A program made the translations under genes and the position numbers. 64,000 nucleotides of DNA from Terebella lapidaria (taxonomy: Eukaryota; Annelida; Polychaeta; Terebellida; Terebellidae): assembly GCA_949152475.1 (NCBI GenBank), contig OX424555.1:70943499-71007498 (forward strand), given 5' to 3'. The notes beneath the pieces were generated by a model that searched no databases, was not told the DNA's origin, and was given only the letters and a program-made list of their open reading frames with translations. This document shows positions 6,691 through 58,020 of the stretch, piece after piece; the stretch's first letter is position 1; every line of letters starts with the position of its first letter.

Positions 6691-8628
6691 TTAATGATTG
6701 AAATCACCGAGCGCACATTCCTGATAATTGTCGAGGCACGTTTTGTTTACTGAAAAACAGAGCGTTGACAACGTTCCATTCACAATAATAAGTCATGTTC
6801 TACCAAACTCAATTCAACGCATGGATAACTTAGTTTTACGACGACTTTGTTACTTATAATCAATAAATGCATATGAATCTTGCTATGTCAAAAGAAGACC
6901 ATTGAGCGGATTAAACCCAACACGAACCCGCACAAAACATTGGGGCTTAAACACTTGGCAGACCAACAAATCGTCGAAGGCGCGCGTTTCTCGGTCCGCA
7001 CTTGTTTCGCTTAGTGATATATGTTACGACAAGATCTTTGATCGCCGATATAAAAAGGACGTCTTTTGCACTGGCTGTTATCATTCGGCAACACTCTTGA
7101 ACTTGACTTCGAAGGAGATATTCTCTACACGCAAAACTCGATCGGAGCGGGTGTATGATTTTGCGGCGTCGCGGCCTGGTCCAACATAGTGGTGTCTAAA
7201 ATGAGGTATGCTATGGACGTACATGTACATATATTGGATTTACAAATCCAAAATTTGATTATTGGAAGAAACAAATTTCATATGAGTAATTTCGGCGCAA
7301 ATTTGGTTACAAAAATTATCGATATTCCAAGATAACTATGTTGCTATCGGTAATTTAAAAAACCCTCATAACTTGTAGTGTTATAAATAATAGACTGACC
7401 GATAACATTTTTGGTTATCACATGTCACTGTTTTTGGCACAGTTAACCGTTGTCAATGCATACACTGATTATTCAGTTTGATTTGACTACCGATCGAGAT
7501 ATTGAACGTTTACCGCCATGTCAGGTTATGCAATCAAACTGGGCGTGTTCTAAATAATGTCTAATTTGGCTGGAGTTTGTAATTAATTGCCGGATGAATG
7601 ATTCCAAGAAAGTGCGATTACCAGCGCATCGGCCACTGCATGGGCGCGGAAAGCGCGATTGAAGTCCCCATCGCGTCCGGACACGATCGGCCATGTATGG
7701 ACCGCTCGATCACCATACAAGGGCATGTGAGCACGGAGTCATGATCAATACTAGGACAATGATCAAGTTATTGATAAGCACACGGGTAAATATATACACG
7801 GTCAGACCGCTGAATATTTTGGCAACTACCTAACGGGAGCGCACAAACACACTTGGCGTTTGGACTTGTTCAGTGGAGTGAGCGTACACACAATGTAGAG
7901 GACAGACAGGTAATTAAACTTACTAACGCGTATATATTTTGTGTGTACAAAACAAGAAACTATGAATGGATTATCACACACTATGGGACCGGTATGTTGA
8001 ATGATCTTAGGATATTCACATTTCGATATATATTTAACAGGAGAGAACCACAGCTGTTTTCATATAGAATACTAAATATTTATGAACACAACTCGTGGTA
8101 TCTCTTTTGTGAAATATACAAACATCTGCTACGGGGAATATCCTTGCGTATATTAATGAACTTTTTTTTCATCTGGTTTGCTTGTTTCAAATGCCGTTAA
8201 AATGGCGAGTTAAATTGTTACGTGGGCTTAGATCTACATTCCACAAGAAATGTAAGCTTTACGTTCTTGACAGTGCAAAACTTGACAATATGGCAGACCT
8301 TTGGCGCTCCATGTGCATCGATTTATTTTTTTCAGAGCCAGGGCGTTCGAGAAAATATTTATTGACAGGTACTAAACTTCGAGATCCGACCACTTGAAAG
8401 AGTGAGAGTCAATAAATGTCGAGATCAGATCAGACAGCGGGTTGACCAGAAGACAAGACTGGACGGCACCGTGTCTTACATGCGACCGACACAACGACCT
8501 GCACTCTACACTTTAGCATTTATAATCAGATATATATGAGGTTGTCTGGTACAGTTGCACAATAGATACCAGTGTGTGAAAATCACGTGGGCAACTCATA
8601 TGTACTCTTAACCAGGATAAGTGCCCGA
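6691..8628. other. Intergenic, no confident gene
   Basis: Open frames of 70-115 residues occur (for example 6902-7189 and 7853-8200) but none shows a recognisable motif or splice context. One detail matters: 8080-8110 contains TATGAACACAACTCGTGGTA, the same words that form the core of the minisatellite at 9.2 kb, so a diverged precursor copy sits here. Confidence 0.5.
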
Positions 8629-9198
8629 TGTGCAGTTTCAGGAAAGAACGACTTTGAAAATGCATTATCTGGCACTACTGCTGGTTGAAACATGCACACA
8701 TCAACACGGAAGCTGATGGAAAACCAAGAGAATCGAAAGAATAAATGAATGGGATTTGAGAAAGAGAACTACAGATGTGCTCATATAGAGTCAGCAGTAT
8801 GAACACAACTCGTGGTATCTCTTTGTCAGTTCCTGCTAACTTCTCCACTGTAAACATTCTACCTGAGGCTTGACTGAAACAAACGGCTCGAATCAGTGTC
8901 GGATGTGCAGTTTCATGTGAATAATATTTGAAAATGCATATTCTGGCGCTAACTTTGGCCGACACATGCACCACTCAGAAGAACAATAGAAGCCGACAAA
9001 GAAGGACTAGTGATAAAATTACTGAAATAGTGATTTCCCGACGTCACTTGCATGTACAAACCATGTTTAGCTAATAATATCTTTGAGTAATATTACAATT
9101 AATGAGACACACAATCCGGATGAATAATCTCGGTAGACAAGCATGCTGCCCACAAGATGGATACGTTGTTTCCGGAATGAGAACTGCAGGTGTATTCA
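8629..9198. repeat. Diverged direct repeat, ~277-bp period, minisatellite precursor
   Basis: GATGTGCAGTTTCA with following TTTGAAAATGCAT and ACATGCAC recurs at about 8629-8697 and 8906-8972. Between them, 8790-8820 carries TATGAACACAACTCGTGGTA followed by TCTCTTTG, the core of the 57-bp minisatellite that starts at about 9199. The array therefore appears to have grown from one copy of an older repeat present at least three times (8.08, 8.79 and 9.21 kb). Confidence 0.6.
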
Positions 9199-10633
9199 TA
9201 CAGTTATTGGAGCTATGAACACAGCTAGTGGTATCTCTTTCCTGGACGGCTACTCGACAATCATTGGAGCTATGAACACAACTAGTAGTATCTCTTTCCT
9301 GGACGGCTACTCGACAATCATTGGAGCTATGAACACAACTAGTAGTATCTCTTTCCTGGACGGCTACTCGACAATCATTGGAGCTATGAACACAACTAGT
9401 AGTATCTCTTTCCTGGACGGCTACTCGACAATCATTGGAGCTATGAACACAACTAGTAGTATCTCTTTCCTGGACGGCTACTCGACAATCATTGGAGCTA
9501 TGAACACAACTAGTAGTATCTCTTTCCTGGACGGCTACTCGACAATCATTGGAGCTATGAACACAACTAGTAGTATCTCTTTCCTGGACGGCTACTCGAC
9601 AATCATTGGAGCTATGAACACAACTAGTAGTATCTCTTTCCTGGACGGCTACTCGACAATCATTGGAGCTATGAACACAACTAGTAGTATCTCTTTCCTG
9701 GACGGCTACTCGACAATCATTGGAGCTATGAACACAGCTAGTGGTATCTCTTTCCTGGACGGCTTCTCGACAATCATTGGGGCTATGAACACAGACAGTG
9801 GTATCTCTTTCCTGGACGGCTTCTCGACAATCATTGGGGCTATGAACACAGACAGTGGTATCTCTTTCCTGGACGGCTACTCGACAATCATTGGAGCTAT
9901 GAACACAGCTAGTGGTATCTCTTTCATGGACGGCTTCTCGACAATCATTGGGGCTATGAACACAGACAGTGGTATCTCTTTCCTGGACGGCTTCTCGACA
10001 ATCATTGGGGCTATGAACACAGACAGTGGTATCTCTTTCCTGGACGGCTTCTCGACAATCATTGGGGCTATGAACACAGACAGTAGTATCTCTTTCCTGG
10101 ACGGCTAGTTGACAATCATTGGGGCTATGAACACAGACAGTAGTATCTCTTTCCTGGACGGCTAGTTGACAATCATTGGGGCTATGAACACAGCTAGTGG
10201 TATCGCTTTCCTGGATGACTAGTTGACAATCATTGGGGCTATGACCGCAGCTAGTGGTATCGCTTTCCTGGACATGCTGGACGGCTACTCGACAATCATT
10301 GGGGCTATGAACACAGACAGTGGTATCGCTTTCCTGGACGGCTACTCGACAATCATTGGGGCTATGAACAAAGACAGTGGTATCTCTTTACTGGACGGTC
10401 ACTCGACAATCATTGGGGCTATGAACACAGACAGTGGTATCTGTTTCCTGGACGGCTTCTCGACAATCATTGGAGCTAGGAACACGGACAGTGGTATCTT
10501 TTTACTGGGCGGTTACTCGACAATTATTGGAGCTATGAACACAGCTAGAGGTATCTCTTTCCTGGACGGCTACTCGACAATTATGGGGGCTATGAACACA
10601 GCTAGTGGTATCTCTTTCATGGACGGCTAGTTG
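9199..10633. repeat. 57-bp minisatellite, 25 copies, with higher-order structure
   Basis: The unit holds the words ATTGGAGCTATGAACACA, then GTATCTCTTTCCTGGACGGC, then TACTCGACAATC. Twenty-five copies fit between the first core at 9213 and the last at 10590, with one 9-bp internal gain near 10271. About nine units between 9250 and 9720 look identical, while the 3' units differ, so the 5' block was homogenised recently. A three-unit pattern (one AGCTAGTGG unit, two GACAGTGG units) occurs at about 9726-9896 and again at 9897-10067. Because 57 is a multiple of three, an open frame of 321 residues (9143-10108; repeat of TIIGAMNTTSSISFLDGYS) arises automatically. It opens at a plain ATG with no visible signal peptide, and the opposite strand is also open, so coding is not supported. 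Confidence 0.95.
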
Positions 10634-12229
10634 ACAATCACAGGATACACGGAGACAACCAACTGTTGTATTTGTGACGAAATAGCGTTACTACCGGCGG
10701 ATATTACGCCGACAGGATCGTACAGTACGATGTATGCTGTGCAAAACACAAACGAATAGTCCGACGTTCTCCAATAAAATCCGATGTTTATTAGGATGAT
10801 AAAGTCCGATGAACGATCACGGCATTCACACACATAATCCCCAAAATATAGTCCGATATTATTAATAGTCTGTAATATTCCAAATTGGAATTTCCAATGG
10901 ATCTTGTATCTTCTTTACTTTACAATGTTCTTCTTGATATTCTTATACCTCTCATTCATATCTTCTAAAAGCCTTTTATCTTCTAAAAGTCTGGGAAAGC
11001 GTGGGGCCATGTGTTGAGACTGTTGAGTGTCTGGAAGTTTCCCGTTTCGTGGGGCGGAAGTTGTGCGTGATAGGTTGAATGTGATGTCATGTCTGGATAG
11101 GCGTGGTTTGGAGGGAATTTGCTGAGTGACGTCGTTTGCAGAGTTGTTTACATGTGGTGCGGTGGCTAGGACGGTGTGAGCTGGATGACATAAGGTAAGT
11201 ATGAAGTCATGTGATGAATCTGTGACGTGTATGTGGAGTGAGAGAACGTGTAAGGGATGGGTTTTGGGCGATAACATAAATAATCTACATATTATTGTGT
11301 TATTTAAACTGACACCAAGATGCTAAGTGTAAGCAAGTTGAAACCAACTGCAACTTGGCATACTTCATCTAGGAGTCAAACAACAATTTTCTACCGAAAA
11401 GGCACTCGTGACTGATGTTCTTCTGGCTATAACCTGAGGTCCCGAGGTTCATGTCATCCAAATAACCATATTTCAGACATCCATCGAAACGTTACCGGCG
11501 AAATGCACTTGTAAAGTGTTCACTTGGCAAAGTCTGAAATGGTATTGTTCTCCATAAAAATGACCATTTTGACCTTTCAATTTCATCAAAGTTAAAATTC
11601 GAGGGCACCACTCGAAAATTTGATTTCGGACCAAAAATATTTTTTCGCCGACCCTGCCACACACAAATCGACGATTCAGGGGCAACGAAACTTATACACT
11701 TCACAGTAGTACACGTGGGGAGTCATATGCATCAATTAGATGAAAGTTACTGAACACATTCCGAGAAAGTGGGGGTGCTGTGATGCATCGAATGAAATTT
11801 AACATTGGGGTAGATTGCTAACTATTTCAGTTTTTACGAAAGAAGTCTTAAATTTGGTACTAAATTGCGCTCGACTCCCAGTTGAAGTATACCAAGCCAT
11901 AATAAGATACCGGCACAGCATCGGAAAATATCCGCGAAAAAGGTTGTAAACGAGTTTCAACAAATCTGAGCATAAAAAAATCCGAATAGCCGATGGAGAA
12001 ATTACACCATTTCATAATATACATAGAAAAGATTTCATGTCGATAGGAGCCCAACTGGATGAGAGCATGACGCTGAGTCCTACAACAATCAGGCTTAAAT
12101 AAATCAAAGTATAAAATCACATGCAATAATGTATGATATAAAAGAATCCAAACATTTCCTGAGAGAATTATCATGCAACATATAAGTCTAAACATAACTG
12201 AGGTGTAAGAAAAACATTATACTACCCCG
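10634..12229. other. Intergenic, no confident gene
   Basis: Open frames of 68-120 residues on the minus strand (10627-10833, 10915-11277, 11860-12195) resemble no known family. GTCCGAT words recur at about 10750-10850. A fragment of the long dispersed repeat (words GTTCTTCTGGCTATAACCTG and GAGGTCCCGAGG) lies at 11415-11460 and recurs at 13140 and elsewhere. The segment near 11660-11700 vaguely resembles 54340-54390 (GAAACTTATACAC), possibly another repeat fragment. Confidence 0.45.
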
Positions 12230-30283: not shown

Positions 30284-30289
30284 CACGGC

Positions 30290-30486
30290 TGTTGAACCCA
30301 CAAATGTTAAAACGCCCACAAATGTGAAAACCCACAAATGTGAAAACAAATTTTGTAAATCACCCACAAATGTGAAAATATCATTACCCACAAATGTGAA
30401 AAAAAATCCACCCACAAATGTGAAAAAAAAAATTTAACCACAAATGTGAAAACGGTTTTTGTCATTTGCCCACAAATGTGAAAATC
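30290..30486. repeat. Left terminal inverted repeat: 8 CCCACAAATGTG motifs
   Basis: Eight motifs with spacers of 0 to about 20 bp; several spacers are A-runs. The motif core CACAAATGTG is a near-palindrome. Such clustered terminal motifs are a usual place for transposase binding in DNA transposons (general knowledge; not shown here). Confidence 0.9.
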
Positions 30487-30849
30487 AAACACAGCATTAT
30501 TGTCCTATACATTACCTCCATAATACTACACGGGTAACTCCTAACAGCCTACTTAAATTAGGCTCCCCCATAGAGAAACCTCTCATATGGGGAAGAATAA
30601 AGAATGACCCCTCCCTTGCTGCCACCAGGGGCAGCACCGTAGCCACTTCCTCCATTCCCAATTCTCCTATTGAAGGAAGCAGACCTACTTATGCCTACTC
30701 TATATTTCTGTTTAATTTTATTGCTTGGATCCACCTCTGTGGAAACCTCTGTGGAAACTCGGCAGGAATGGACTCTTAGTCGTTAGGGGTGTCCTTTTTA
30801 ACACGTTGACGGTAGTCCACGCCCAGGTTTTCCTGTTTGAGTGAGCTGA

Positions 30850-33800
30850 GCTGACCATGCCCACGCGTGTGTGTGGCCGGTGCCACGTGTTCTTACCAGC
30901 GTGGGAGGTCCACGACTTCTGTTGGCGGTGTGTGGATTCGTTCTGCATCGACGATTTTCCTTGCGACAAGTGCGAATCTCGTTCACCAGAAGACTGGTCA
31001 ACCGTGTATGGGGCGTTGAGGGATTTACTTCACCTCCGTTCACGTCCCTCCCCACCTGATGTTGACTGCTCTCGGTCTGCCTGGGTGCATTGTCTCGCCG
31101 CCATCCGTCGCTTCGACACTGAGTCGGCTCGGCTTAATTTAGCTTTACAATCCCCAGTGAGTGTAGACGCCCTGTCCCTCTTAGACTCACAGGAATTTTG
31201 TCATAATTTTGATTGTAATGTCATGTTTGTCCCTCCCTCTCCCCCACCTGTGTGTGCGGCTCTGGCCCCGCAGGTGTGGTGGGTGATGTGGTGGGCCGCT
31301 CTCTGCTTTCGGCATTGCGCCCTCAGCTTTTGAGTGTTCGGAGTCTGTTAGATTTTCCAGCTAGCCTGGTTAATCGTTTTCTCTCCATTCACTCCGAGCG
31401 TCGTGTTTCCGAGTCCATGCCTTGCGTGGGCGCTCGGAGCCCGGGTCCCAGGAACACTCCGTCTGTTCCCGCGCTCTCATCTGTCACGCTCATGTCAGAT
31501 GACGGTGCTCGGCTCCCGGGTCCCGGTCGGGACCCGGGTCCCGGTGGGATTACGGCTCCGGGTTCCGAGTCACTGTCAGCTATACAGCTACACGTTGGCG
31601 CTCGAGTCCCGGGCCCCGCTCGGGGCCCGGGTTCCGACGGGAACCCGGGTTCCGATAGGAACACGACTCTCGTTAAGGTATCAGATGCTGATAGACCATG
31701 CTTGCGTCTTCCTCGGCATTCCGCTACCAGCTCAGGCTTGTCCCTCGTTACCACGGCGTTGCCTCTATGCCCACCTCGGGCATTAGTAACTGACGCTAGT
31801 GGTTTGGTCGAGTTAGAAACAGGGCTAGTTCGGCTCCCGGCCCCTGTCGGGGCCCGGGACCCGGGTTCCCATCGGATCGCAGGATCCGACCAGCCTCCGT
31901 TTTCTATTCGGACTAATGGCTTCAATGCTAGCAGTGAGTGCTCGCCTCATCTTCCACCGCATCTGACTGCCTCAGGGCGCGATGTTTCGGTGAAAGTGGG
32001 GGGGGGGGGGGGGAGGAGGTTATGACGGTATGTCTAATTCTCACTCTCTCTTCCAGTCGATATCCCAGCGCAGCAGGCCTTCCCCGCCGCCGATCCAGTG
32101 GATAGCCTCGCCACCAGACAGCTCCCTCGGGATGCCCTCTACGGACCCTGCCACAGCGGGTCGCTCTTTAGCGACGTCCGGGCCTTCGGGCCAGACTGCG
32201 GGTTGCTCTTTAGCGACGTCCGGGCCTTCGGGCCAACCTCTCACGACTGTCTTCGCGGGCCGCTCTTCAGCGGAGTCCGGGCCTTCGGGCCACCCTTCGG
32301 CAGTGCGTGTGTCGGGCCGCTCTTCAGCGGAGTCCGTTATGTTACCTTCACCTGCCTCCTCCGCGCCTCAGGATTTTCGGCAGTTGGAACTAGACATCTC
32401 CTCTCGCATGTCGGCACAAATGCAAGCGATGTTCTCGCAGCTCTCGACTCAGGTGCAGCACAGCCTCCTCCAGTGTCGTCCCCCGACTGCTCCTCCTCCT
32501 GGATTCTTGCCTCTCACAGGCCGTGCGAGCGAGGCCACCTGTGGACTATCCACGCCTCTGCAGCGGACCCAGTCCCTACAGTCACCAGGCCTCTTACCCC
32601 CGGACCAGCTCTTAGCCACTCCGGCTCAGGATCTTCCCGTGGAGTCACCCCGGCTCAGGTGCTCCAGGTGCTGCCCTCTTCCGGCTTCGTTCCCTCGGCT
32701 TCACGGAAGCGTCGCTGTCCCGACCCGGAGTCCGACTCGGAAGAAGAGGACGAAGAAGAGGATATGGACTCCGCGTCCATACATCCTTCCCTGGTAGACG
32801 AACGTGGCTCCTCTCAGGATCTCCAGTTCCGGGAGAAGTTGGTTCTCACGCGTGCGTGTCTCGGTTCCCAGTTTCCGCCAGAGCCTCCGACGGAAACCTC
32901 GTCAGTGGAACCAGTTTCTTGTGGCCAGCCAGTACCGCCATCAAGTTCACGCCAGCAACTGCCTCTCAGCCGCAGCGTACGCCAGGCGTTCGAGGTTCGT
33001 CGCCAAGCCTCCATCAAGGCCAAGGGAGACAAGATAAAGAAACCCAAGCTCTCCTCTTCATACTTGCCTTCCCACAAGGACTTCACGGAGAAGCCGTCGG
33101 AGCCTTCCAAGAAGACTCTTCAGTATATGTCGGCCCCCTCGAAGATCTCGGTGACCCCTGCCCAGGTAGCAGATGTTCAACAGTCGATTCGTTCAGCTGT
33201 TCTCATCGACTCCACCCAGGACTGGCTTTTAGCCGCCGCGCGGGATCTCCTCGAGAACCTGGCCCAGCAAGCCTCTGCTGTACCCGTCCCCCAAGCTGCC
33301 CTTCAGGATCAGATCTCCACCGCTATCGGATTTCTGTCCAGCGCGGGCTTGTCTATCCGGGACTGCCTACACCAGCTCTCTTACGGCGCGTTCACCATGG
33401 AGCAGTGGCGACAGGACGCCTTCCTCAAGTCCCTGACTTTCAAGCCGTCCCTGGATTTGAAATCCCGACTACGTTCCGCCCCCATGCTGCTGTCCTGCGC
33501 ACAGGAGGCGCTCACGGACCAGGCCGCCAACTCCCTGTTCCACGGAGAGGACGGTGCTCTTTCAGCTGAGAAACGGCAAGTGTCGGACCGCGTCCAGTCG
33601 GCCAATGCCCAGCTGGTCTCCGAACTGCTTGCCAAGCAGAAGGCTTGGAAGCCACGGCCACAGCCACAGACCGCTTCTTCTTCAAAGCCCAAGAAACAGA
33701 GGAAGAAGCAGCCCTTTTCAGGAGCCCCTGCCTCTACAACCATGGGTGGTCGCCACTCCGGGTCCAGCCGCCGCGGCAAGTCTAAGGGCGGAGCAGGGGC

Positions 33801-36690
33801 GTCCAGGCCCAGTCACGACAGTAAGTACCAGTGCCAGGGAACTTTCCGAGTACCACGCGTCACCAATGGCGACTCCCGCTCATTTTGGTCACGTAGAACC
33901 GCCAGTCGGTGGGCGCTTAAATCTCTTTTGGCCCATTTGGCAAGAGATGGGTGCCAGCCCTTGGATCTGGGGGGGTACTCAGGAAGGGATTCCAGATTCA
34001 GTTCATAACTCAACCTGCATTATCCCCCATCCCCAAGTCATTCACTCTGCCGTCGGCTCCGGCGAAGCGAGCAGCCTTGGATGTAGAGATAAAAAAATTG
34101 ATCGCGAAAGGGGCAGTAGAACCTGCAGATCCGCGGACTCCGGGTTTCTACAGTATCGTGTTCGTGGTTCCAAAGAGTTCCGGCGGTTGTCGCCCAGTTA
34201 TAGACTTGTCGCCTCTGAATCCGTTCGTGCAGACTCCAAAGTTCGTTATGGAGACGCCCGAGTTCATTCGGTTAGCGCTTCCAGAGAATGCATGGGCGAT
34301 CTCGCTGGATCTGAAGGATGCCTTCTTCCACATTCCGATACACTCAGCCTCGCGAAAGTATCTGAGGTTCGCTTTCCGGGGTCGTGTGTGGCAGTTCTGT
34401 GCTCTACCATTCGGCCTGTCACCTTCTCCTTGGATATTCACCATGGTGGTGAGGGAGGTCCAGAGCCTGGCCCACCAGCGGGGATTGTTCCTTCATCAAT
34501 ACCTTGACGACTGGCTCCTACGCAGTCAGTCTCGGGACACGTTGTTGGAGCACCGCGATTGGTTGATCAATACGTGTCAGACAATGGGCCTAGTGATCAA
34601 TTTCGAGAAATCAGAGCTCGTTCCATCTCGAGATTTCGTGTTTCTGGGCTACAGGTTTGTGACCACGTCAGGCATGGTCTTCCCACCTCAGGACAGAATT
34701 TCCAAATTGCGCCCTATTCTAGCCTCCTTCCTGGCTCATCCGTGTCAGTCGGCAGCCACCTGGCAGTCTCTGCTAGGCCTGTTGGCGGCAACGGAGAAGC
34801 TGGTACCTTTGGGCCGCTTACATATGCGAGAACTGCAGCATTGCCTGAGTTTGGGTTGGTGTCAAGCTACAGACCCCGACTCTACCATGGTAATGTTGTC
34901 TCCAGCGGCTCGCGAGTGCGTGCAGTGGTGGATTCAAATCAGAAACCTGTCACAAGGTTCTCCCTTCCGTCTGCCGCTGCCATCCAAGCATCTGTTTACG
35001 GATGCCAGCACGGAGGGCTGGGGCGCCCACTTGGACTTCCAAGAGATTTCGGGCTTGTGGAGCGACCATTATTTGTCTTGGCACATCAATGCTCTCGAGT
35101 TGGAAGCTGTATCTAGGGCCCTGGCCAATTGGGTATCCGAGTTAGCAGGACACTCAGTTTTGGTTGCCACGGACAACTCAACGGTCGTGGCCTACATCAA
35201 CAAGCAAGGAGGCACTCGTTCCTTGACACTCAGTCGTCAGGTGTCGGCCTTGCTACGGTGATGCAACGCCCAATCGATTTTGCTCCGTGCCCGTCACATT
35301 CCCGGCCGTCTCAATGTCTTGGCGGACATGCTGTCTCGGCGGGGTCAGGTACAGCTTACCGAATGGACCTTGTCTCCAGCGGTCTTTCGACAGTTATGTA
35401 CCCTTTGGGATCGACCTCATGTGGACCTGTTTGCCACTCGTTGGAACAACAGGCTCCCCACCTTTGTGTCGCCAATCTCAGACCCCCTGGCTTGGGGTGT
35501 GGATGCTCTGTCTATGGACTGGGAGGGCCTGTATGCATATGCTTACCCCCCAGCCATTCTGATTCCGCAAGTGATTGCCAAGGTTCGAGCACAACAATGT
35601 CGGATCCTGCTTATTGCGCCTCTACAACCCGAGAAGTCGTGGTTCCCAGAGCTTCTAGATCTCCTTGTCGATGTTCCGAGGCCGTTGCCTCTGCGAGGAG
35701 ATCTACTGAGGCAGCCACGGTCTCCGGTGTTTCACCAGAACACACGCCAGCTGGCCCTTCACGCGTGGATGTTGTCCAGCGATCCTTCCGCGCAAAGGGA
35801 TTTTCTGAGGGATGTGTCCTCTCGGCTCGCACGACCAAATAGAAGGTCTTCTTTGGCGGTCTACGAGTCGAAATGGGTCGTCTTCAGTGCTTTCTGTGAG
35901 CGCAGGCAGACTGATCCTTTCACGGCCAATGCCCCTTTAATAGCTGAATTTCTGATGTTAAAATTCTCTGAAGGTTGGGTGCCATCTACCCTTGCAGGCT
36001 ACAGAACGGCTATTGCTAAGACGCTTTTGCCGCGACAAGGTGTGGACTACGGGACCGATCATGCCTTGACTTTATTGCTCAAGAACTTCGAGGTAGATCG
36101 TCCCGTGGCGCGAAACCCCACTCCTGCGTGGGACTTGTCGTTGGTCTTGAACCGTCTGGCATCAGCCCCGTTCGAGCCCCTGGCTTCGGCGCCCCTCAAG
36201 TTAGTCACTTGAAAAACGGTTTTTCTCCTTGCCCTAGCCTCTGGCAGGCGTCGAGGTGAGATCCATGCTTTGGATGCGTCTAAGATTAGCTGGAAGGAGA
36301 ACTATGCTCAGGTCAGACTGGGCGTTCTCCCGTCTTTTCTCTCGAAAACCCAGCTCTCTACGGCCCATCCATTGGCGATTGTGATCCCTGCTCTCGATGC
36401 CTCTCTTGGAAGTTGGCACGGACTTGGAGAGTGACGCGAAGCTCTGTCCCGTACGTGCGTTGCGCTTTTACCTTGACAAGACCAAGGGTTTTCGACAAGG
36501 CAAAAAGCTTCTTTTCGTCTCTTATCTGAAAAGCTTCAAGAACGATATTCGCTCCCCGACTATCTCTTCTTGGATTAAGAAATGCATTCGACTCTGTTAC
36601 GATCTCGGCGATCAGCCGACTGATTGTTCTTTTCGGGTACGGGCGCATGACGTACGGGCCATGGCTGCGTCATCATATAATGAATAATAA
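30850..36690 (+). mobile_element. DIRS-like tyrosine-recombinase retroelement (fossil)
   Basis: Much richer in GC than its surroundings. Parts in order: a Cys-rich then Ser/Pro-rich Gag-like region (about 30.86-33.85 kb, ending in a Lys/Arg-rich tail); reverse transcriptase with RNase H (about 33.95-35.4 kb; RT blocks include DLKDAFFHIP, LPFGLSPSP and YLDDWL; RNase H shows LFTDASTEGWGAHL and VATDNSTVVAYIN); and a tyrosine recombinase region (about 35.8-36.68 kb, with RAHDVRA as the HxxR block). This RT-RNase H-YR order and the absence of LTRs and DDE integrase fit DIRS-like elements. It is broken, with roughly three to five breaks, and its own terminal repeats are not visible. The Gag-like region holds short GC-rich internal repeats (about 31.5-31.9 and 32.15-32.34 kb). 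The largely open coding regions suggest moderate age. Confidence 0.9.
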
Positions 36691-37298
36691 TAGTAATGTT
36701 GCCGTTACGTGAGGCCCGAGAACCATGGGAGGGGTCCCCGGAACCACAACGCTTGGGCATCCTGAGCCCACTTCCTTGAAAAATAATTCTACTTCCGGTT
36801 TGGTGTCATTTGACACCACAGGTGTAATCTGATACCAAACCACACCTAGTATATTGCCAATTAGCCCTACGGGTTCGAAAATAATGTCCTTTTTGCTCTA
36901 CGATCAATCTTTACTGAGATATGAAGGTTTTTATGGAAAAGTGGGTGATAATAGGGGAAAGTGTAAATTTTTGGCCTTCAAACACACCAAAACGGCCTAA
37001 TAACTGATCCTTGGGCATCCTGAGCCCATTTCCTTGAAAAATATTTCTACTTCCGGTTTGGTGTAATTTGACATCACAGGTGTAATTTGATACCAAACCA
37101 CGCCTAGTATATTGCCAATTAGCCCTATGGGTTCGAAAATAATGTCCTTTTTGCTCTACGATCAATATTTACTGAGATATGAAGGTTTTTATGGAAAAAT
37201 GATGATAATAGGGTAAAGTATTAATTGTGTAATAGGTTTTCAGAACAAAGGTCGGTAACCTAAAAACATTCCTCATGTTGAAGCTAATGTTGTGTCAG
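36691..37298. repeat. Direct repeat of a ~200-bp block, 258-bp period
   Basis: CTTGGGCATCCTGAGCCC and the following CTACTTCCGGTTTGGTGT, GATACCAAACCAC and CTTTTTGCTCTACGATCAAT occur at 36752-36955 and again at 37010-37205. GGTTTGGTGT and GATACCAAACC form an imperfect hairpin within each copy. No coding. It lies between the DIRS-like fossil and the right terminal array and may be internal sequence of the host element. Confidence 0.85.
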
Positions 37299-37544
37299 AT
37301 TTTCACATTTGTGGGCAATTGACAAAAATCGTTTTCACATTTGTGGTTGATTTTTTTTTTCACATTTGTGGGTGAAGTTTTTTTCACATTTGTGGGTGAA
37401 GATTTTCACATTTGTGGGTAGTTGACAAAAAACGATTTCACATTTGTGGTTGATTTTTTTACATTTGTGGGTGATTTACAAAATTTGTTTTCACATTTGT
37501 GGGTTTTCACATTTGTGGGCGTTTTAACATTTGTGGGTTCAACA
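37299..37544. repeat. Right terminal inverted repeat: 10 CCCACAAATGTG motifs
   Basis: Ten copies of the motif in opposite orientation to the left end. The outer ~80 bp equal the left end; the middle has two extra motifs. The last bases GGGTTCAACA are followed directly by the duplicated CACGGC. Confidence 0.9.
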
Positions 37545-37550
37545 CACGGC

Positions 37551-56847: not shown

Positions 56848-56980
56848 AATAATGCGGTTTTAATTTGTAATCATGATTGCAGTAGGCCAGTAACTGTTAT
56901 TAAACTTGTTCTTAATCGGAAAATTTAATAAGAATAATACACTGTTAGTATGTTACTCTCCCTATCATTATTATCTTAAT

Positions 56981-58020
56981 AGGTTACCGACCCAAGGATC
57001 CGAAATATTAGGTTACCAGACCACAGCCCCATGAAATTAGGTTACCAACCCAAAGGTGCGATATATCACCATGGCATTGCATTTCTTCTGTATGCGGCCA
57101 TCCAACTATAGTGTTATATTTTCTTATAAGTCCAATCATCATTATTTTTTACAGATAATAGTCATCATTTATTATTTATTAGGTTACCGACCCGAAATAT
57201 TAGGTTACCGGACCACAACCCCATGAAATTAGGTTACCAACCCAAAGGCGCGATATCACCATGGCATTGCATTCGTCTGTATGCGGCCATCCAACTATAG
57301 TGTTATATTTTCTTATAAGTCCAATCATCATAATATTTTACAGATAATAGTCATCATTTATTATTTATTAGGTTACCGACCACAGGACTCGAAATATTAG
57401 GTTACCGAACCACAGCCCCATGAAATTAGTTTACCAACCCAAAGGTGCGATATCACCATGGCATTGCATTCTTCTGTATGCGGCCATCCAACTATAGTGC
57501 AATTTTTTCTCATAAGTCCAATCATCGTTATATTTTACAGATAATAGCCATCTTTTATTATTTATTAGGTTACCGACCAAAAGACCCGAAATATCAGGTT
57601 ACCGGATCACAGCCCCATATCAATGAACCAACCTAAATTATCGTGGCATTTTATCCGCTCATATGCGGCGGTCCAACTAGTTTCATATTTCTTGTGAAAT
57701 CATCATTACATTTCGCACAAAAAGATTTATCATTTATCGTTTATTATTTATTGGGTTACCGAACCAAGGTCCCAATAATTGAATTACCGGACCACAGCCC
57801 CATATTAGGTCACTGATTCAAAGGCCCGAAATTACCGTGGCATTGCATGCGTCCATCATGCGGCCATCCAACTAGTTTTATATTCTTCTTATAAGTCGAA
57901 TCATCACTATATTTTGCACAAAATAATTTTCTTATCCTTTTGTTACCATCTCATTTACCAAACATATAAGGTTACCTGACCACAACCCCATATAAGGTCA
58001 CCGACTCACCGGTCCCATAT
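56981..58020. repeat. ~195-bp tandem repeat, about 5.3 copies
   Basis: Units start with AGGTTACCGACC or a variant at 56981, 57181, 57370, 57567, 57753 and (partial) 57969. Each unit has three GGTTACC-type phrases, the CCACAGCCCCAT phrase, ATCACCATGGCATTGCATTC, and TGCGGCCATCCAACTA. The first three units are closest; later ones are more diverged, so the array decays to the right. Confidence 0.9.

Follow-up and report, generated by a model that had tools for sequence, protein, structure and literature searches.

The stretch of the Terebella lapidaria genome examined here (C1:70943499-71007498, 64,000 nucleotides, hereafter the window) holds at 30290-37544 a composite mobile element in which a DIRS1-like retrotransposon lies within a DNA transposon whose ends are inverted arrays of a short motif. 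With a probability of about 0.9, we consider that this array-ended transposon, moved in trans, captured one DIRS element and spread the composite to approximately 96 places, after which a deletion form, to which the window copy belongs, was spread to approximately 29. The searches covered a genome of 438 contigs, 761.6 Mb in all.

The outer element is a dispersed DNA transposon

The outer element starts with TGTTGAACCC at 30290, and GGGTTCAACA finishes at 37544. The hexamer CACGGC was read directly from the letters on both sides of it, at 30284-30289 and 37545-37550 (no strand), and was compared with the flanks of 32 other copies. The left inverted repeat (30290-30495, plus strand) begins with the TGTTGAACCC end, contains 8 copies of the motif CCCACAAATGTG, and matches at 99% the DIRS-free outer copy L055. 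The right inverted repeat (37285-37544, minus strand), delimited by letters, motif count and alignment, contains 10 copies of the motif and has GGGTTCAACA as its terminus. Complementarity across the outermost 94 nt is 98%. With one mismatch allowed, the window contains 18 occurrences of the 12-mer CCCACAAATGTG, where 0.47 would be expected and none of 100 shuffles reached 18; 8 belong to the left end and 10, in inverted orientation, to the right. The initial annotation had reported the CACGGC duplication, the exact ends and the arrays of 8 and 10 motifs, and all of these were confirmed to the letter and at the same positions. Each array unit has CACA-AA-TGTG, which is two inverted half-sites.

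Exact copies of the 12-mer were found 1443 + 1488 times in the genome, compared to 101 + 96 for the reversed control. A 37-nt pattern of the end, with up to two mismatches, gave 217 + 224 genome matches and none with the control. A variant end gave 61 exact matches, which may overlap those of the 37-nt pattern, and a search with the end of an older subfamily gave 41, nearly all in sequence adjoining the array rather than in the array.

Flanks were compared for the 33 outer copies with both ends read; L042-L044 and L061-L064, which lacked an end or were complex in structure, were excluded. Exact duplications of 6 bp were found in 23 of the 33, and of 5 bp in another 5. All mismatched pairs of left and right flanks served as the control, of which 2 of 1056 had 6 bp and 0 of 1056 had 5 bp in exact agreement. 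Among the 23 exact 6-bp duplications, 18 have CG as the central dinucleotide (positions 3-4) and 3 have CA or TG there, while CG makes up 3.2% of the dinucleotides in the window. A chance origin of CACGGC is ruled out by the duplications across the 33 copies. The outer element, with inverted repeats and short target duplications at dispersed sites, is a dispersed terminal inverted repeat (TIR) DNA transposon. That the copies are segmental duplications of one locus is extremely improbable: some matches are close together, for example DIRS reverse transcriptase (RT) matches at 34.75-34.76 Mb of C6 and at 10.25 Mb of C9, but the flanks differ and 28 of 33 copies have an exact duplication of their own, which contradicts this origin for the copies measured.

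The DIRS element entered an existing outer transposon at a single site

Outer copies devoid of a DIRS body were found with lengths of 1.2 kb (L045, L052), 1.5 kb (L049), 2.8-3.1 kb (L047, L048), and 5.5-5.8 kb (L054-L056). These have the same ends as the composites, and exact duplications. When full composites were aligned to DIRS-free copies, the DIRS insertion point was located just inside the left array. The empty site, as seen in L055, c4405, L047, L048, and L056, reads ..AATCAAACACAGC-ATT-AGGTTCCACATG. The composites read ..CACAGC-ATT-ATTGTCCTATAC at the left junction and ..AAAACGACGA-ATT-AGGTTCCACATG at the right junction, and by reading of the letters the overlap of the empty site with both junctions is ATT alone. 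In the window this ATT lies at 30496-30498 (no strand), and is both the target trinucleotide and the left terminus of the DIRS element, as supported by the empty site in five copies and by ATT preceding an equal left end in five free DIRS copies. Since DIRS-free copies show the exact empty site, the DIRS element entered an outer transposon that already existed.

These results bear on the two origins put forward in the initial annotation. The first, a DIRS element having jumped into an unknown DNA transposon, is borne out by the DIRS-free copies, the exact empty site, the free DIRS copies, and the exact 5- or 6-bp duplications that 28 of the 33 copies carry. The second, in which foreign ends took in a DIRS body, stands only in so far as the two elements are now mobile as a unit. 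The annotation had also suggested searching the genome for the terminal arrays with and without the DIRS body, and had held that arrays always joined to it, without target duplications, would identify them as DIRS termini; the search instead recovered both forms, with 6-bp duplications in 23 of 33 copies. The idea that an unusual DIRS element has the arrays as its termini, with CACGGC present by chance, therefore has almost no remaining probability. It has in its favor that, of 43 elements for which the 100 listed of the 441 end matches include both ends, 25 combine the array with a DIRS body, as counted by eye; however, the other 18 are not known to hold DIRS sequence, the inverted repeats of the DIRS element itself sit inside the arrays, free copies terminate in ATT and lack an array, and both the empty site and the exact duplications in 28 of 33 copies contradict it.

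We then consider how often the DIRS element was captured. The array-DIRS junction, with up to three mismatches, gave 98 genome matches and none with the control, or approximately 96 when two matches on C7 were omitted, whose three mismatches fall in the host part and which may have other flanks. The DIRS left-end pattern gave 177 + 160 matches (control 0); the pattern also matches the complementary region within the element, and intact elements are therefore counted twice. The first 100 listed of these matches comprised 43 at the composite junction, including the two on C7, 20 in complementary regions of composites, and 37 elsewhere, representing at most 28 elements. Five free DIRS copies had unrelated sequence ahead of ATT, as read from the letters, two of them by eye on the opposite strand. 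Because one junction recurs approximately 96 times while free DIRS copies with unrelated flanks exist, the simplest account would be one capture, followed by transport to approximately 96 places by the outer transposon. Pairwise differences among RT segments from 12 copies were 0.27-3.33%, and the spread of the composites therefore looks recent.

A deletion form was moved by the outer transposon

The window copy, c17121, L058, and L059 have in common a deletion through which DIRS GGCTGCGTCAT runs into outer-transposon ATAATGAATAATAATAG at a CAT microhomology of 3 bp, found in the window at 36671-36673 (no strand). From the DIRS element this deletion takes out the right inverted repeat and the complementary region, as well as the recombinase C-terminus, in which the catalytic tyrosine lies. 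Its junction had 29 genome matches, 24 exact and 5 with one mismatch (control 0), and of 14 junctions checked, 13 had the common left junction at the expected spacing. The initial annotation had called the DIRS-like body a fossil; the body holds an RT and a damaged recombinase frame, and the fossil state is in part a deletion common to 29 copies, and other copies retain the DIRS inverted repeats and complementary region.

Both flanks were read for nine deletion copies. Seven had exact 6-bp duplications (CACGGC, ATCGTG, CACATG, CATATC, AACGAT, GACGTC, and CGGGTG), one had an exact 5-bp duplication, and one had a 6-bp duplication with one mismatch. These nine deletion copies thus have 5-6-bp duplications of their own and no DIRS right end, and therefore it was the outer transposon, rather than the DIRS machinery, that moved them. 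In two of the 29 (C2:32.28 Mb and C17:2.03 Mb) a second RT segment is found 1144 bp away, which is a further inherited rearrangement. In a tree of the RT segments from 12 copies (240 nt only for L064) the branches were very short and the deletion copies were not grouped; the tree is neutral on a single origin of the deletion, which the identical junction suggests.

The deletion copies also bear on whether the DIRS element might have inserted repeatedly at the same ATT hot spot in separate outer copies. DIRS elements recombine at ATT, which here is present in every outer copy, but we regard repeated insertion as improbable: there are approximately 96 junctions at one site and in one orientation, despite ATT being common elsewhere, and the deletion common to 29 copies, with the 1144-bp-spaced duplication in two, shows composites, rather than outer copies lacking DIRS, to be the parents of many.

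Certain observations weigh against a single capture followed by transport. Four of the 33 outer copies have a 6-bp duplication bearing one mismatch, and one, L046, has no duplication at all. The free DIRS copies are known by their left flanks alone, and the count of array-DIRS junctions is blind to DIRS elements inserted elsewhere in the outer element. Six DIRS-free copies scanned with Pfam yielded no transposase, the longest DIRS-free pairs lying outside that set.

The following course of events would account for the dispersed ends, the target duplications, the empty site, the one common junction, and the common deletion with separate duplications. A DDE transposase, presumably supplied in trans, would bind the repeated CACA-AA-TGTG sites, cut at TGTTG/CAACA, and insert the outer element with a 5-6-bp stagger into mostly CG-centered targets. 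A DIRS1-like retrotransposon would have integrated once, by means of its own tyrosine recombinase, at the ATT just inside the left array, and the transposase would have carried the composite to approximately 96 places, by whatever route copy number rose. A deletion at the CAT microhomology would then have cost one copy the C-terminus of the DIRS recombinase along with the complementary region and the right inverted repeat, and this copy would have been carried on to approximately 29 places, of which the window is one.

Candidate sources of the transposase

The outer transposon is non-autonomous in the copies seen. For the Pfam scans, c4405 was examined as open frames (part of a 1146-aa frame); the inner parts of L055, L057, and L062, the fetched part of L063, and most of c13316 were examined as translations with X at stops; and c21702 was scanned in parts only, on one strand. 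The scans of DIRS-free copies returned retroelement domains and two weak matches below the cut-off. The domains were Gypsy-type RT-RNaseH-integrase (c4405; L031/L032), LINE-type endonuclease and RT (c13316; L033), and RT (L063). We judge these to be nested insertions, a verdict that falls short of proof because self-comparison of c4405 and c21702 gave no pair of long terminal repeats (LTRs). The outer transposon thus appears to have been invaded often by other retroelements. An integrase C-terminal fragment in c21702 (Integrase_p58_C; L040:5481-6209; E 7.4e-10), for which the one strand scanned gave no RT and self-comparison no pair of LTRs, is judged to be probably a stray piece, perhaps of Gypsy origin, and as a possible remnant of an integrase-type transposase it stays a lead.

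Genome matches to PolB and to rva_4, which we take to be a marker of IS3EU, were compared by eye with partial lists of the outer ends (100 of 441, 30 of 30, 100 of 110, and 61 of 61 matches). None of the 133 rva_4 matches lay between listed ends. Polinton/Maverick elements have long inverted repeats, as does the outer element. They also have a 6-bp duplication (PMC10045372), but 0 of 123 PolB matches lay between listed ends, and Polinton membership is unsupported.

Ginger1 has TGTNR ends, a CG-centered target with a 4-bp CCGG/CCGT duplication, and inverted repeats of 40-270 bp, and Ginger2 has duplications of 4-5 bp (PMC2836005). The outer element resembles both in its TGTNR ends (TGTTG here) and long inverted repeats, and Ginger1 also in its CG-centered target, but its duplications are 5-6 bp and no transposase was seen in the copies scanned. 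Membership in Ginger1 is ruled out by the 6-bp (23 of 33) and 5-bp (5 of 33) duplications. IS3EU and GingerRoot have 6-bp duplications and mostly TA..TA ends, with TG..CA ends occasionally in GingerRoot (PMC10045372). The outer element has such duplications together with TG..CA ends, but no rva_4 match between the listed ends. Dada elements lack TIRs and insert in small RNA genes (PMC3706591); membership is ruled out by the long inverted repeats, and the window had no Rfam match.

The TGTNR ends together with the CG-centered 5-6-bp duplications suggest an integrase-type (Ginger/GingerRoot-like) enzyme as the mover, which we favor slightly. We give somewhat below even odds to the alternative that the element is moved by a DDE transposase from beyond the retroviral-integrase group, such as a hAT-, Mutator-, or P-like enzyme, or by one without known relatives: the copies scanned gave no transposase, the argument is drawn from ends and duplications only, and the PolB and rva_4 matches in the partial lists were not between ends, but TGTNR ends and a CG-centered target are features of Ginger1 (PMC2836005), and 6-bp duplications with TG..CA ends at times are features of GingerRoot (PMC10045372). 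Assuming an integrase-type mover, we propose only tentatively that the outer element represents an undescribed group with array ends and CG-centered 5-6-bp duplications, whose most numerous form would be the DIRS composite, a retrotransposon lineage copied chiefly by DNA transposition and independent of its own recombinase.

Significance of the composite

Cases in which one mobile element captured another have been described. Teratorn, for example, is a composite of a DNA transposon joined to a different kind of genetic element (PMC10175614); the composite described here differs in having a retrotransposon as the partner and no transposase in any of the copies scanned. Among the papers listed by searches of the open-licence literature, judged mostly from titles and the openings of abstracts, none described a DIRS element multiplied within a DNA transposon, or a DNA transposon bringing a retrotransposon to approximately 96 copies, in part after the retrotransposon had lost its recombinase. 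The case is one of a retrotransposon multiplied by DNA transposition after losing its own integration machinery, and a single genome holds the empty site of the carrier, the free passenger, and the crippled passenger. It offers a test of DIRS integration, since the empty site and the predicted circle junction agree to the base, and makes testable the cargo tolerance of a DNA transposon and which transposase prefers CG-centered targets. It also cautions that how many copies a retroelement family has is not necessarily a measure of retrotransposition.

Structure and coding capacity of the DIRS body

The DIRS1-like body in the window occupies 30496-36673 on the plus strand, left inverted repeat first and right part deleted, as determined by alignment to fuller copies; the features that follow are on the same strand. 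The left inverted repeat (30496-30664) was recognized by homology to 206-374 of the fuller copy c15345, which is complementary to 7785-7619 of that copy at 97.6%. Two open frames are gag-like by position with no Pfam match, one with a Cys/His-rich start (30857-31330) and a long one (32038-34005). GC-rich short repeats with 18-bp and 42/57-bp units lie inside the gag-like region at 31507-31890 and 32156-32336. The frame at 33921-35258 matches RVT_1 (E 9.1e-24) and, below the Pfam cut-off, RNase H (3.1e-4). The tyrosine recombinase region (35262-36673), assigned from open reading frames and alignment, has stops inside it and ends before the catalytic tyrosine.

In c15345, internal positions 7504-7565 are the exact complement of the right end at 7754-7815 and continue into the complement of the left end. 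This complementary region, absent from the window copy, is the predicted circle junction. The recombinase C-terminus, with HDVR and HYLRD motifs, is found in c15345, c18256, L060, and L061, and L064 is interrupted there. A Phage_integrase match in c18256 was below the cut-off (E 0.0024), and no solved structure related by sequence was found for the DIRS tyrosine recombinase. A methyltransferase domain was sought in window 35262-36209 and in the 385-aa frame of c17121, with no Pfam match.

The inner element, with inverted repeats, complementary region, ATT integration, RT/RNase H, and tyrosine recombinase, is a DIRS1-like retrotransposon. AcaDIRS1/2 of Aplysia californica are DIRS1-like elements having ATT termini with an AAT junction (PMC3266345). 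They share with the element described here these termini and junction, the inverted repeats, the internal complementary region, RT, tyrosine recombinase, and integration without duplication beyond the trinucleotide. They differ in that the DIRS element here is inside another transposon and was spread by that carrier, has no detected methyltransferase domain, and in the window copy lacks the right end. Elsewhere in the genome, three DIRS RT matches approximately 4.1-4.2 kb apart (C6:34753617-34763057) and two 4.8 kb apart (C9:10251880-10257776) are possible tandem or nested DIRS arrays.

Other repeats in the window

Between the deletion junction and the right array, self-comparison and alignment identified outer-transposon inner sequence (36671-37284, plus strand) with two 258-bp-spaced repeats (36752-36943 and 37010-37201). 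A 197-bp tandem repeat of 3.4 copies at 56964-57618 has TTAGGTTACCGACC in its unit. This sequence recurs near 37237-37262, in the inner sequence on the right side of the outer transposon, and the satellite and the transposon may have sequence in common. At 9206-10640 is a 57-bp tandem repeat of 25 copies with a 92% match, in phase with a 321-aa frame (9143-10108), which would encode either a 19-residue repeat protein or be a decaying array.

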